Assembly: GCA_024742355.1 (NCBI GenBank)
Contig: JANSYM010000002.1
Span: 186,001 to 250,000, forward strand
Reading direction: 5' to 3'
Source: Hyphomonadaceae bacterium
Lineage (GTDB): Bacteria > Pseudomonadota > Alphaproteobacteria > Caulobacterales > Hyphomonadaceae
DNA length: 64,000 bases
The notes under the pieces are model-generated. The model had not been told where the DNA came from and ran no database searches. It was given only the letters and a program-made list of their open reading frames with translations. Position numbers and translations under genes: made by a program. Of the stretch, positions 1,880 through 35,875 are shown one piece after another (the stretch's first letter is position 1; every line of letters begins with the position of its first letter).

Positions 1880-3963
<2,084 letters not shown>

Positions 3964-4111
3964 CTAATTGAGTCACCTGTTGAGGGCAAGCCCTGTTTTG
4001 GCCTGAATTTCAGTACGCACAAGATCGGATCTTTTTCGTTACAGGAGAGTCACGAAATCTGAGACGCTACGACAATGTTTGCATTGCCGATGCACGGTAC
4101 CGGACATCGTT

Positions 4112-5419
4112 ATGTCCAGGACATACGAAATTCTGCATCTATATCTTCACATCCCCGCATTGATCTTCGTTGCCATTGCTGCCCACTCCATGGCGATCGC
4201 AGCGCCGAGCGTTCCCGCGTCGGCAATTTCACCCGATCGCCTCGCCGATCTTGAGGATCACATGAAATCATATGTGAGCGGCGACCGAGTCGGAAATCTG
4301 TCTTACGGCGTGTGGCAACGTGGAGAACTCATTGAATCCGGTTTCTATGGACCGACCCAGGCGCCGGGTTCGCGCTGCGTCGACGAAGACACGCTTTATC
4401 AGATCTACTCGATGACCAAACCGGTGACCGCGGTTGGGCTGCTGATTCTGCATGAACGCGGTTACTTCAATCTGGATGACCCAATCACCACCGTCTTGCC
4501 GGAATTTGAAGGGATCGAAGTGGTGGCCGATTATGATGACACTGGAAATCTCTATACCTATCTACCGCCCGGACCGCCCACCTTTCGACACTTGCTCAGT
4601 CATACCGCCGGTTTCGCATATCAATCTGCCGATCGCGGGCCGATAGATCGGAGATACCTCGAGCTTAAAATCGCCCAGGCACAAACGGGTGACGCGCTGG
4701 TTGAGCGCATTGCCAGTGTTCCATTGATGCGCCAGCCCGGAGCTGAGTGGCATTATTCTTTTGCCTCAGACCTGCAAGGTGTCGTGATCGAACGGCTCAC
4801 TGGGGATTCTCTGCACGTGTTTTTGAAGCGCGAGATCTTCGATCGCCTGAATATGCGAGATACCGGATTTTTTGTTCCGGACGACAAAGCCAATCGTGTC
4901 AGCGTCACGAGCCGAACCTCCTCCGACGGCTTGATCTATGAAGCGCCCGAAGACCTCTCAGAGCACACCCAATCCCGGATCTATTTCGAAGGCGGCCACG
5001 GTCTCATCTCGACGCTTGCCGACTATCACCGATTCCTCGAATGCCTGCGCCGCGGCGGGCGGACCGGTGCTGTGCAAATCCTGACACAAGACTCCATCGA
5101 CCTTCTCACACATAATGCCATCCGTTATCGCGGCACGCCGGCACCTCAGCGCATGCAGGGCAAGCAGGCTGGTCTCGGTTACGGATTCGGCGTGAGTGTC
5201 ATCATCGACCCGGTACTCGCAGAAATGCCCGCGCCGAAAGGTACGTATTATTGGTACGGCGCACTTGGAAGCTGGTTCTGGGTCGACCCAGTCAATGAGA
5301 TCGTGGTCGTGGGGATGGTCCAAACCAGAAGCCCGGTCGCACCGGAAATTATTTCAGGCAGTATGACAAAGCTGTACAGCGGCGGCGCTTCTCTCGAACG
5401 GATGGCCGTGTCACCGTGA
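4112..5419 (+). CDS. Exported serine hydrolase, family VIII esterase / class C beta-lactamase fold
   Basis: From ATG at 4112 this gives 435 residues with an N-terminal signal peptide (hydrophobic stretch LYLHIPALIFVAIAAHSM, then Ala-rich cleavage region), so it acts outside the cytoplasm. The nucleophile motif SxxK is SMTK with Ser near residue 100. The second motif is YSFASD with Tyr near 215, matching the Y-S-x-A-x-D pattern of EstB-type esterases rather than the YxN of true AmpC enzymes. The third box is probably the WYGALGSWFWVDP region. Such proteins hydrolyse short-chain esters, sometimes with weak beta-lactamase activity. An upstream in-frame TTG at 4079 exists, but ATG-4112 starts the signal peptide directly. 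The stop is 11 bp from convergent yacG. Confidence 0.85.
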   Translation: MSRTYEILHLYLHIPALIFVAIAAHSMAIAAPSVPASAISPDRLADLEDHMKSYVSGDRVGNLSYGVWQRGELIESGFYGPTQAPGSRCVDEDTLYQIYSMTKPVTAVGLLILHERGYFNLDDPITTVLPEFEGIEVVADYDDTGNLYTYLPPGPPTFRHLLSHTAGFAYQSADRGPIDRRYLELKIAQAQTGDALVERIASVPLMRQPGAEWHYSFASDLQGVVIERLTGDSLHVFLKREIFDRLNMRDTGFFVPDDKANRVSVTSRTSSDGLIYEAPEDLSEHTQSRIYFEGGHGLISTLADYHRFLECLRRGGRTGAVQILTQDSIDLLTHNAIRYRGTPAPQRMQGKQAGLGYGFGVSVIIDPVLAEMPAPKGTYYWYGALGSWFWVDPVNEIVVVGMVQTRSPVAPEIISGSMTKLYSGGASLERMAVSP

Positions 5420-33924: not shown

Positions 33925-34018
33925 TTTATTAGGAAAAAGACTAGCAGGATGGGGGGCAGGTTACAAATGCTGATCGCACGTTCTAAACTGGTCAAAACCG
34001 CACAGAATGGAGCTCTGC

Positions 34019-35050
34019 ATGACCGGCTTTCCCCCGACCCGCCGCCTGGTCCTCGCGACCGGCCTCAGCACGCTGACATTTGCCTGTTCCGCCCGGCCGG
34101 ATTCGCCGGAAAAAGCACCAGAATCCAAGGGCGCATGGCGCGCCGGCGCTGCCCTCCCCTATGCGGCGCAGGAGATCTATCCGGCGCTGCACGCGGGACG
34201 TATCCACCTCGCCGGTGGTTTCATCGCCGAGGACGGACGGATATCCGGCGTCACCGACAGCCATATCGCTCTAGACCCGGCCGCTGGCACCTGGGCAGAG
34301 CTCACCCCTCTTCCAAGACCCCGTCATCACCCCAACCTGATCAGTTTTGACGGCAAACTCGTCGCCATTGGCGGCTTTGAAGCGCAATCAGAGCAAGCGG
34401 TCTGGGTGATGCAGGCAGGCACCTGGGTCTATGATGGCGATAGCTGGGCCGACGGACCGACCTTGCCCCAGCCGAACGGTGAGAGCGTGACGGGCGTGGT
34501 TGATGGCGCTCTGCATGTCTGTGGCGGGCGTAAACCGCGCGGCGCAACGAATGAAAGCTGGAACAATCACACCGATATCAGCGACCATTTCGTCCTGACC
34601 GATCTTTCCGGGGCATGGGAGAGCGCAGCGCCGCTCCCGACCGCGCGAAACAGCGGCGCTGCAGCAGTGCTGGGCGAAGCCTGGCATGTGGTCGGCGGTC
34701 GTACCGTGGCCGGCGGCAATACCGCGGCGCATGAAGTCTATGATGCCGCCGAGGATCGCTGGCGCACCGCCGCGCCAATGCCACAAGGCCAGGCCGGGCT
34801 CGCCGCCGCGAGCGTCAATGGAAATCTCTACGCGTTCGGCGGTGAGTATTTCAACAATGGCGGCGGGGTCTATCCAGAGGCCTGGGCCTATGACCCATCT
34901 GCAGATGCGTGGTCATCCATTCCAGACATGCCGCACCCGCGACACGGTCTTGGCGCGGTCACGATTGGCGGTGAGATCTATGTGATTGGCGGCGCGCTGG
35001 AGGCAGGCGGCAACCAAACATCACCGCTGGTGGAGATTTTTATGCCCTAG
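34019..35050 (+). CDS. Kelch-repeat lipoprotein
   Basis: From ATG at 34019 this gives 343 residues. The N-terminus has a twin-arginine-like TRRLVLATGLSTLTFAC, so it may be a Tat-exported lipoprotein with Cys near residue 22. The rest consists of five or six kelch blades, recognisable by the GG-Y/W spacing: HLAGGFIAEDG, LVAIGGFEAQS, LHVCGGRKPRG, WHVVGGRTVAGG, LYAFGGEYF and IYVIGGALEAGG. It should fold as a beta-propeller on the periplasmic side or the outer membrane. The ligand or activity is unknown. The stop lies 12 bp from the convergent EF-hand gene. Confidence 0.85.
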   Translation: MTGFPPTRRLVLATGLSTLTFACSARPDSPEKAPESKGAWRAGAALPYAAQEIYPALHAGRIHLAGGFIAEDGRISGVTDSHIALDPAAGTWAELTPLPRPRHHPNLISFDGKLVAIGGFEAQSEQAVWVMQAGTWVYDGDSWADGPTLPQPNGESVTGVVDGALHVCGGRKPRGATNESWNNHTDISDHFVLTDLSGAWESAAPLPTARNSGAAAVLGEAWHVVGGRTVAGGNTAAHEVYDAAEDRWRTAAPMPQGQAGLAAASVNGNLYAFGGEYFNNGGGVYPEAWAYDPSADAWSSIPDMPHPRHGLGAVTIGGEIYVIGGALEAGGNQTSPLVEIFMP

Positions 35051-35062
35051 CGCGCCGACGCT

Positions 35063-35770
35063 TTAGAGTCGGACAATTTGATACTCTTGCAGCGTAACCG
35101 ATCCATTGCCGTTCGTGTCGAGAATATTGAACGAATTCTCCAGCCGCTCAGTCTCCTCAGCGGTGCCGTTGGAGAAGGATTTCAATTCGTCCAGGGTCAG
35201 TGTCCCGTCGCCATCCACATCGACAGCATAGAACGAAATCCGGGTCGTGATGTCGAAGCGCGGCATGAACTCGCGCTCGTCGACTTTTCCGTCGCCATTT
35301 GAATCATAGGCGCGATAATCGCGATGAAGCAGCCACTTGGCGTCCTCGCGGCTAAGCACGCGCACATCGCTGCCATCTGAATCCATGGCCAAAGCGGCGA
35401 CAGGCTCTGACGCGGTGATGTATTCGTCGAGACTGATCGAGCCGTCGCGATCGGTATCTATCGCCGAAAATGCCTGTGCCGGATCGGCAGAGGCCGTCGT
35501 CGCCACCGCGGACATGCCGAACAGGGACAAGGCGCAAATCGCGCTGGTTGAGATCGGGTATTTTCTGAGAAGAGCAGTCATATCGGGCTTCCATTCCTTT
35601 CGCTGTTGATCGCGTTTGAATGGCGCATCGACATGATCGCGCATGAGATCCCGGATGACTTCACTCGCGGAGCGGTCATCGCGCTTGCATTGATCGAGAA
35701 AGGCCGACTTCGCCTCATGGCTAATCCGGAATTCGATCAATTCGGTCTTTTTGGGTTCTCGTATTGTCAT
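35063..35770 (-). CDS. Ribbon-helix-helix domain fused through a membrane span to EF-hands
   Basis: A 235-residue single reading frame with three parts. Residues 5-46 look like a ribbon-helix-helix DNA-binding domain (LIEFRISHEAKSAFLDQ, then SASEVIRDLM). Residues 72-95 are a hydrophobic segment ending ATTASA, readable as a membrane anchor or signal peptide. Residues 100-235 hold four canonical EF-hand loops (D105-E116, D156-E167, D184-E195, D218-E229) and one degenerate loop near 130-141. If the full frame is used, the protein would place a DNA-binding domain in the cytoplasm and calcium-binding loops in the periplasm. An internal ATG at 35581, with GGAA seven bases upstream, would give a simple exported EF-hand protein; both products are possible. 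Confidence 0.8.
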   Translation of the reverse strand: MTIREPKKTELIEFRISHEAKSAFLDQCKRDDRSASEVIRDLMRDHVDAPFKRDQQRKEWKPDMTALLRKYPISTSAICALSLFGMSAVATTASADPAQAFSAIDTDRDGSISLDEYITASEPVAALAMDSDGSDVRVLSREDAKWLLHRDYRAYDSNGDGKVDEREFMPRFDITTRISFYAVDVDGDGTLTLDELKSFSNGTAEETERLENSFNILDTNGNGSVTLQEYQIVRL

Positions 35771-35875
35771 CGTCTTCGCTCATTCAAACGCAGCCTTAAG
35801 CTGCCCATCGGATGTCGCGAAGTGTACAAAATTCGAGTGGGAACGCGAGCACTTTCGTGTCCCCACACGGGCATT

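Follow-up and report, generated by a model that had tools for sequence, protein, structure and literature searches.

The RHH-EF gene and its surroundings

The window, a stretch of 64,000 nucleotides, stems from a Henriciella-like genome of the Hyphomonadaceae. On its minus strand a frame of 235 aa runs uninterrupted from position 35770 to position 35063 (ATG at 35770-35768, stop codon included); the plus-strand reading of 35063-35770 is interrupted by stops. Upstream on the same strand lies ssb (36387-35908) and further downstream gyrA, both named from reading the sequence. A gene for an exported kelch-repeat-like protein, likewise named from its sequence, occupies 34007-35050 on the plus strand and is convergent, with 12 bp between its stop and the end of the RHH-EF gene.

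A sequence-only reading had claimed a single open frame at this place, without giving its strand, and had divided it into a ribbon-helix-helix (RHH) domain, a hydrophobic span and a set of EF-hand loops, four of them canonical and one degenerate. The frame is borne out, and profile comparison, Pfam and sequence agree with all three parts. Among 105 family genomes, the own genome included, 78 gave a match of some kind, many to the EF-hands alone, and two genomes of the same genus hold full-length orthologues (78% and 74% identity) in which, as in the own gene, the frame stays open over 238 codons. This shared frame and a dN/dS of 0.03 for the RHH part indicate that neither frame nor architecture is due to chance. 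Homologues starting at the signal peptide had been named as evidence against the claim; both same-genus orthologues retain the RHH domain.

The RHH domain comprises residues 7-48 (35627-35752, minus strand). Pfam gave RHH_9 with an E-value of 0.011 and RHH models below cut-off, but a profile made from the N-termini of 20 relatives matched RHH proteins of known structure in the PDB, covering the right residues (DinJ, 7.2e-5; ORF56, 1.4e-4; ParG, 0.0028; RelB, 0.012 and 0.018; weaker matches to VapB26 and CopG types), showing that the domain is real despite the sub-threshold Pfam result. Its strand-helix-helix order and sequence signature are those of the RHH superfamily. Helices are predicted at residues 18-30 and from 35 onward in the window model and at 19-31 and 36-49 in a short form, and the model of a short relative of 113 aa consists of an extended segment, two helices, a long span helix, a low-confidence break and one EF-hand. 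The best Foldseek matches of the short form were RHH proteins (RelB with a TM-score of 0.74 by target length), none with an E-value below 0.001; for the window model, the 50 matches listed were EF-hand proteins or complexes containing one, with RHH proteins absent among them. The RHH part has no assigned strand in the monomer models, as would be expected of an unpaired strand if the RHH fold is completed in the dimer. In comparisons between the window gene and its orthologues dN/dS was 0.030 and 0.033 for the RHH part, which was computable in two of three comparisons, and 0.115 and 0.123 for the EF part (two of all 15 comparisons were not computable as synonymous sites were saturated). The RHH domain is thus the most constrained part, with the lowest value among the segments computed, and RHH residues are invariant across the family.

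Behind it follow, on the minus strand, a basic linker (residues 48-63, 35582-35629) with Shine-Dalgarno-like AAAGGA (35595-35600) and GGAAG (35588-35592), a hydrophobic span readable as signal peptide or membrane anchor (residues 73-90, 35501-35554), and A93-S94-A95-D96 (35483-35494), a signal-peptidase-I-like site whose corresponding motif is conserved in relatives. Cleavage between A95 and D96 would separate the EF-hands from an RHH stub. EF-hand loops 1 (residues 105-116, DTDRDGSISLDE, 35423-35458), 3 (156-167, DSNGDGKVDERE, 35270-35305), 4 (184-195, DVDGDGTLTLDE, 35186-35221) and 5 (218-229, DTNGNGSVTLQE, 35084-35119) are canonical, and a degenerate loop is seen in the sequence at about residues 130-141 (35348-35383; all minus strand). 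Judged by their residues these are EF-hands, with 12-residue loops, acidic residues or Asn at positions 1, 3 and 5 and Glu at position 12, and Pfam EF-hand_5 matched four stretches above cut-off (2.3e-22). An assignment to lanmodulin was rejected (NCBIfam LanM, 53.7 bits against a cut-off of 135), as was one to XopAW, where EF-hand matches were sub-threshold.

Relatives with the same order of parts

We scanned one genome per species with an RHH peptide pattern as query, a search that is by its nature blind to relatives lacking the RHH domain, and kept the best 80 of 113 relatives. The three-part architecture, for which the sequence-only reading had proposed a search, recurs in Caulobacterales, sphingomonads and other alphaproteobacteria. 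The best 80 include Henriciella, Hyphomonas, Ponticaulis, Caulobacter, Phenylobacterium, Brevundimonas and Maricaulis as well as Parvularcula, Kordiimonas, Sphingomonas, Novosphingobium, Devosia and Aminobacter, and their common order is RHH domain, linker, span (usually with a small-x-Ala end) and EF-hands. Divided at 175 aa they comprise 50 short forms (up to 175 aa, mostly with one EF-hand) and 30 long forms, the long set including non-EF forms (e.g. L071, L072, L098, L127, L129 and L132). In L071 (3986-4621), L129 (3986-4633), L132, L127 and L098, RHH-span proteins carry non-EF outer domains and have the same operator type; the RHH-span part gives the impression of a module reused with different outer domains. 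One alphaproteobacterial locus (L081, about 2860-4402) has a long and a short RHH-span-EF gene in tandem.

In a class-wide draw a profile of the short forms matched 39 of 385 genomes. Among the 43 matches listed, 29 start no earlier than profile position 50, which leaves out most of the RHH domain, eight begin at positions 28-46, and only six, in five genomes, begin within the first six positions. Of 199 Sphingomonadaceae genomes 46 were matched, only two of them, already found, over the whole profile and one more in the RHH part alone, which leaves four loci (L065, L086, L087 and L094) to carry the sphingomonad case. Among the entries listed from the open-access literature, outside which most subscription journals and preprints lie, none described the architecture or, in this connection, an RHH protein with signal peptidase, the operator string, Caulobacter lepB or a Caulobacter EF-hand protein with a DNA-binding domain and a transmembrane part; the listed matches to the operator string concern p53-family proteins or other eukaryotic subjects. 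This is apparently a widespread regulator family that has not been described.

The end of the span is better conserved than its core. In the aligned short forms Pro at -4 and Ala at -1 are invariant (33 of 33) and position -3 holds Ser, Ala or Thr; the hydrophobic core, in contrast, is variable. The motif P[STAG]xA is present in 71 of the 80 relatives, that is in 49 of 50 short forms and 22 of 30 long forms; the eight long forms without the strict motif include some with other A-x-A ends and at least three (L067, L088, L134) with no clear site.

A probable second start in the long forms

The in-frame ATG at 35581 to which the sequence-only reading had pointed is present (Met64, 35579-35581, minus strand) and is a candidate second start for an exported EF-hand protein. 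The case for it comes from the relatives, in which an ATG and a Shine-Dalgarno-like stretch recur: a linker ATG precedes the span in 28 of 30 non-redundant long forms (13.0 expected from Met content), and the mean anti-Shine-Dalgarno pairing energy is -5.65 at 29 linker ATGs (collected by a slightly wider rule) as compared with -2.54 at 118 other internal ATGs (p 3e-9). The AGGAG-like runs differ in codon phase among long-form members. Conditioned on the amino acids by synonymous reshuffling, the Shine-Dalgarno signal is modest (Fisher p 0.011), with p of 0.1 or less at 7 of 28 linker ATGs versus 7 of 118 control ATGs. In the window gene the energy is -6.2 at Met64 and a weak -2.5 at the full-length start (background mean -2.0), and under the synonymous null the Shine-Dalgarno stretch at Met64 is not significant in this gene alone (p 0.42). 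The proposed shorter product thus finds its support in the relatives and not in the window gene taken singly. Only six of the 50 short forms have a linker ATG; the other 44 have none, 29 of them lacking any start-like codon. From these patterns long forms probably make two products, a regulator and an exported EF-hand protein.

A conserved operator covaries with the RHH strand

Upstream of the window gene a candidate operator, GTGTGGGGACAC, lies at -98 (35857-35868). A second operator-like copy, GCGTTCCCAC, is found 22 bp from the first (35837-35846), and just downstream of the operators stands TACACT, a -10-like element that may be part of the promoter (35821-35826; all minus strand). These elements are identical in the window gene and both orthologues, whereas other parts of the 100-bp upstream region have changed. 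GTGTGGGGACAC with the GAAA that follows it has one exact match in its own genome. With up to two mismatches allowed, the window operator gave 11 matches there against 8 for the control, and hence no own-genome target beyond the window gene itself is shown.

For the family as a whole, palindromic dyads were counted in 150-bp upstream regions and compared with Markov shuffles. TGTC-N2-GACA occurs in 22 of the 50 short forms (expected 0.05) and in 13 of 25 non-redundant long forms (expected 0.17), the best dyad in 40 shuffles reaching 8 and 4, respectively. Over 230 bp it is found in 49 of 80 upstream regions (shuffles: mean 0.17, maximum 2), and if GTGT-N4-ACAC is also counted, an operator precedes the RHH gene or the peptidase gene described below in 78 of the 80 loci. 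A second copy is often located about 21-22 bp away: mean matches are 5.5 of 10 at offset 22 downstream, 4.3 at offset 14, and 1.5 to 3.6 at the other offsets tested. The exact tandem pattern was present in only 4 of 118 Caulobacteraceae genomes. At L074, L110, L121, L139 and L140, which are of the Caulobacter type, a terminator-like hairpin (GCCCGG...CCGGGCTTTCTTTTTGC) is situated directly upstream of the RHH gene, and the operator was not found there. Exact TGTCCGGACA was counted 47 times in 11 genomes, 17 times in an RHH-peptidase locus by coordinates and 30 times elsewhere, versus 18 for the reversed control; the 30 copies elsewhere do not, against these 18, show a further regulon.

The centre of the operator changes together with the RHH strand. 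The covariation set held 116 distinct RHH starts from all loci; a scan of 290 bp gave TGTC-N2-GACA for 73 of them. The residue before the conserved strand pair [LIV][ED] is Lys in 7 of 7 genes with an AT centre and in 0 of 66 others (Fisher 6e-10, the counts ignoring shared descent), and all ten genes with Asp for Glu have CT, CC or AG centres, none CG. The window type, Leu-Ile-Glu-Phe-Arg, pairs with GTGTGGGGACAC in three of three cases (the window gene and its two orthologues), and the DNA-facing strand segment would fall within I12-E13-F14-R15 (35726-35737, minus strand). Lys-type genes occur with EF-hands (L010, L055, L058) and with other outer domains (L059, L071, L129, L030). A second RHH-span-EF paralogue in the own genome (L039, C2:162921-163229) has the operator centre CT, and Asp replaces Glu in its DNA-facing strand.

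Operator conservation, together with a centre that covaries with strand residues expected to face the DNA, is strong evidence that the RHH domains bind these sites. The domain is very probably DNA-binding, and the conserved palindrome and its covariation lend strong sequence support to the earlier claim of a transcription factor.

Short forms are linked to a signal peptidase I gene

Neighbouring genes were compared all against all as open reading frames across the 80 loci, with flanks of mostly 4 kb per side (less than 3 kb on one side in three long loci, L063, L127 and L131). The dominant neighbour is signal peptidase I, present at 47 of 50 short-form loci and at none of the 30 long-form loci, in agreement with a separate all-frame BLAST search. 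In 44 of the 50 the distance to it is at most about 260 bp, and in L087, L110 and L115 it is 1.6 to 1.8 kb; in L087 a partial peptidase reading frame is 1.6 kb off and the operator is absent. The two genes are convergent in 43 loci, often with overlapping ends, and in four sphingomonad-type loci the peptidase gene is co-directional and downstream. The second and third largest neighbour clusters (39 and 14 loci) consist mostly or entirely of reading frames that share sequence with the peptidase gene (41 of 48 in the second, 15 of 15 in the third); apart from such frames no neighbour cluster exceeds 10 of the 80 loci, and further flanks differ in the eight loci inspected. In a set drawn by family, made up of the best 20 loci found in 119 Caulobacteraceae genomes, the peptidase is within 1.5 kb in 17, and one of the remaining three is a Caulobacter genome with the peptidase 1.8 kb away.

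The linked gene is an additional copy. Long peptidases were examined in 15 genomes with an RHH-linked copy: in 12 of them an RNase III-like gene follows another copy, and in the other three a second copy exists with no such gene detected behind it. A tree of 48 peptidases places the RHH-linked copies in two separate clades, Caulobacteraceae and sphingomonads, with two changes forced by branches of good support, and all 41 aligned copies retain the catalytic Ser-Met box and the downstream Lys.

The operator precedes the linked peptidase gene in 42 of the 47 short-form loci (shuffled mean 0.16), in contrast to 0 of 13 rnc-linked copies. In the same 47 loci it stands before the RHH gene in only 19 and before both genes in 15; in L065, L086 and L094 it is located between the RHH and peptidase genes, and a Novosphingobium genome has only two exact TGTCCGGACA sites, both in the RHH-peptidase intergenic stretch. 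Among the peptidase copies scored, 1 of 14 labelled as RHH-linked lacked the operator and 2 of 14 labelled as other had it. One of these two positives is the own-genome copy, where the site overlaps the start codon, and the other, from Novosphingobium, is actually RHH-linked (L205, the same locus as L065). The window lineage is without a peptidase partner: in its own genome the one long signal peptidase I gene lies on another contig. Among five Hyphomonadaceae signal peptidase genes the operator was absent from the stretch inspected in four, and the fifth is the own-genome gene with TGTCATGACA, which we judged to be a chance match as it overlaps the start codon. Going by operators and gene order, some relatives appear to regulate the very peptidase that would probably release them from the membrane.

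A model for the RHH-span-EF proteins and its alternatives

The reading that we favour, and hold to be reasonably likely, is that the window gene encodes an autoregulated, membrane-inserted transcription factor that can be cleaved by signal peptidase I and gives rise to an exported EF-hand product. According to this model an RHH dimer would bind the tandem operators in its own promoter, as operator and specificity residues suggest. Repression would be expected since the second operator copy sits where the -35 element for the conserved TACACT would be. The hydrophobic span would insert the protein into the inner membrane with the RHH domain inside and the EF-hands outside. This part of the earlier reading, the membrane tether, agrees with the anatomy (basic linker, span, export-type C-terminal part); a plain ToxR-like anchor does not, as the span ends in a conserved site. 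That signal-peptidase-I-like site, taken with the operator that short-form genes share with their signal peptidase I partner, suggests a tether that is probably meant for cutting. Signal peptidase I would cut after the conserved Ala at -1, leaving an exported EF-hand domain and an RHH stub, and the state of the stub (tethered, cut or degraded) would set operator occupancy, so that transcription reports on export and cleavage. Of the calcium response named in the sequence-only reading, the sequence shows the loops; calcium on the EF-hands might gate this step. In long forms the start at ATG-35581 would probably yield an exported EF-hand protein without the RHH domain, making one gene the source of both regulator and product. 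In Caulobacteraceae and sphingomonads the second likely target is the promoter of the adjacent signal peptidase I paralogue, and there the loop is closed on paper, with regulator, candidate protease and shared operator.

A further step, which we offer tentatively as a possibility that falls short of likely, is a signal-peptidase homeostat. The uncut or cut state of the protein would gauge signal peptidase I capacity, perhaps only when the EF-hands are folded by calcium, and would reset the second peptidase and the protein itself through the TGTCCGGACA operators that they share; long forms would be the same device, with two starts in one gene.

Operator and anatomy would also fit a plain ToxR-like one-component calcium sensor, in which the anchor stays uncut, outside calcium alters RHH dimerisation and the A-x-A motif is incidental. 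RHH domains work as dimers, the single EF-hand of a short form could pair across such a dimer, and the eight of 30 long forms lacking a strict P[STAG]xA may include members that stay uncut. We nevertheless regard this as unlikely, for an incidental motif sits poorly with a -1 Ala and a -4 Pro that never vary in 33 short forms while the core does, and with a partner gene that is signal peptidase I itself under the same operator. The linker ATGs, present in 28 of 30 long forms with Shine-Dalgarno energies stronger than those at 118 control ATGs, and the weak Shine-Dalgarno stretch at the full-length start of the window gene would also suit two unconnected products, an exported EF-hand protein from ATG-35581 and a membrane-independent full-length RHH autorepressor, with regulated choice of start. 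This is less likely again: 44 of 50 short forms keep the whole architecture without a linker ATG, and their peptidase partner suggests that the span matters.

If only the protein from ATG-35581 were made, as its classical signal-peptide look and the energies of -6.2 at Met64 and -2.5 at the full-length start might suggest, the gene would be that of an ordinary exported EF-hand protein with the RHH part a relic or untranslated. A dN/dS of 0.03, the invariant RHH residues and the operator covariation make this very improbable, and an untranslated RHH relic was rejected on the dN/dS. We give hardly any credence to a toxin-antitoxin unit in which the RHH domain is the antitoxin and is joined to a secreted domain. 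Antitoxin RHH domains (DinJ, RelB, VapB26) do figure among the closest solved structures, but the sole widely common neighbour is signal peptidase I, other non-overlapping clusters stay at or below 10 of 80 loci and further flanks differ in the eight loci inspected; with no conserved toxin-like neighbour found among the 80 loci, such a unit was rejected.

The family bears on two questions: by what means bacteria adjust signal peptidase capacity to the load of secreted proteins, and whether a DNA-binding protein reads extracytoplasmic calcium directly. It is a compact candidate for both, since operator, partner gene and specificity residues are available and the laboratory model Caulobacter has relatives. 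If the homeostat is true, a transcription factor is its own export substrate. Two separate peptidase lineages are linked to an RHH gene.

Comparison with known systems

The repressors of the CopG/Arc/MetJ/RelB type are soluble and short, use strand residues to read their palindrome and have tandem sites two helical turns apart. The window protein resembles them, as far as its sequence tells, in RHH fold, in a short palindrome presumably read by the strand, in autoregulation and in tandem sites, and differs in the fusion of the RHH domain to a span and EF-hands. With ToxR/CadC-type regulators it would, by its anatomy, share a DNA-binding domain inside, one span and a sensory part outside in one chain. 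The DNA-binding domains of ToxR and CadC are winged-helix domains; having an RHH domain, the window protein stands outside the ToxR family proper, though it may work in a ToxR-like way, and its outer part consists of EF-hands and its span ends in a signal-peptidase-like site. The suggestion of a ToxR-like arrangement with unrelated domains fits the RHH domain in place of a winged helix and the one-chain anatomy, but not the span, which looks unlike a plain anchor. Lanmodulin and other exported bacterial EF-hand proteins likewise have a signal peptide followed by several EF-hands. Lanmodulin is marked by Pro at loop position 2, which the window protein lacks, and the window protein has an RHH domain in front.

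In Staphylococcus aureus a bypass of signal peptidase is reportedly under repressor control. The bypass is effected by a putative ABC transporter (PMC5013292), and is similar in that a genetic response is tied to loss of signal peptidase function; the accessible part of that report mentions neither a membrane-tethered RHH domain nor an EF-hand. For sigma-V of Bacillus subtilis, the accessible text of a further report describes that signal peptidase cuts RsiV upon lysozyme binding and so starts its degradation (PMC6066255). As far as that text goes, RsiV is a membrane regulator whose degradation is initiated by signal peptidase, here the first protease of a signalling cascade, and it is comparable to the cleavage by signal peptidase I that we propose for the RHH-span-EF protein. 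RsiV is an anti-sigma factor, however, whereas the RHH-span-EF protein would be the DNA-binder itself, carries EF-hands and, in its short forms, shares its operator with the adjacent peptidase gene.
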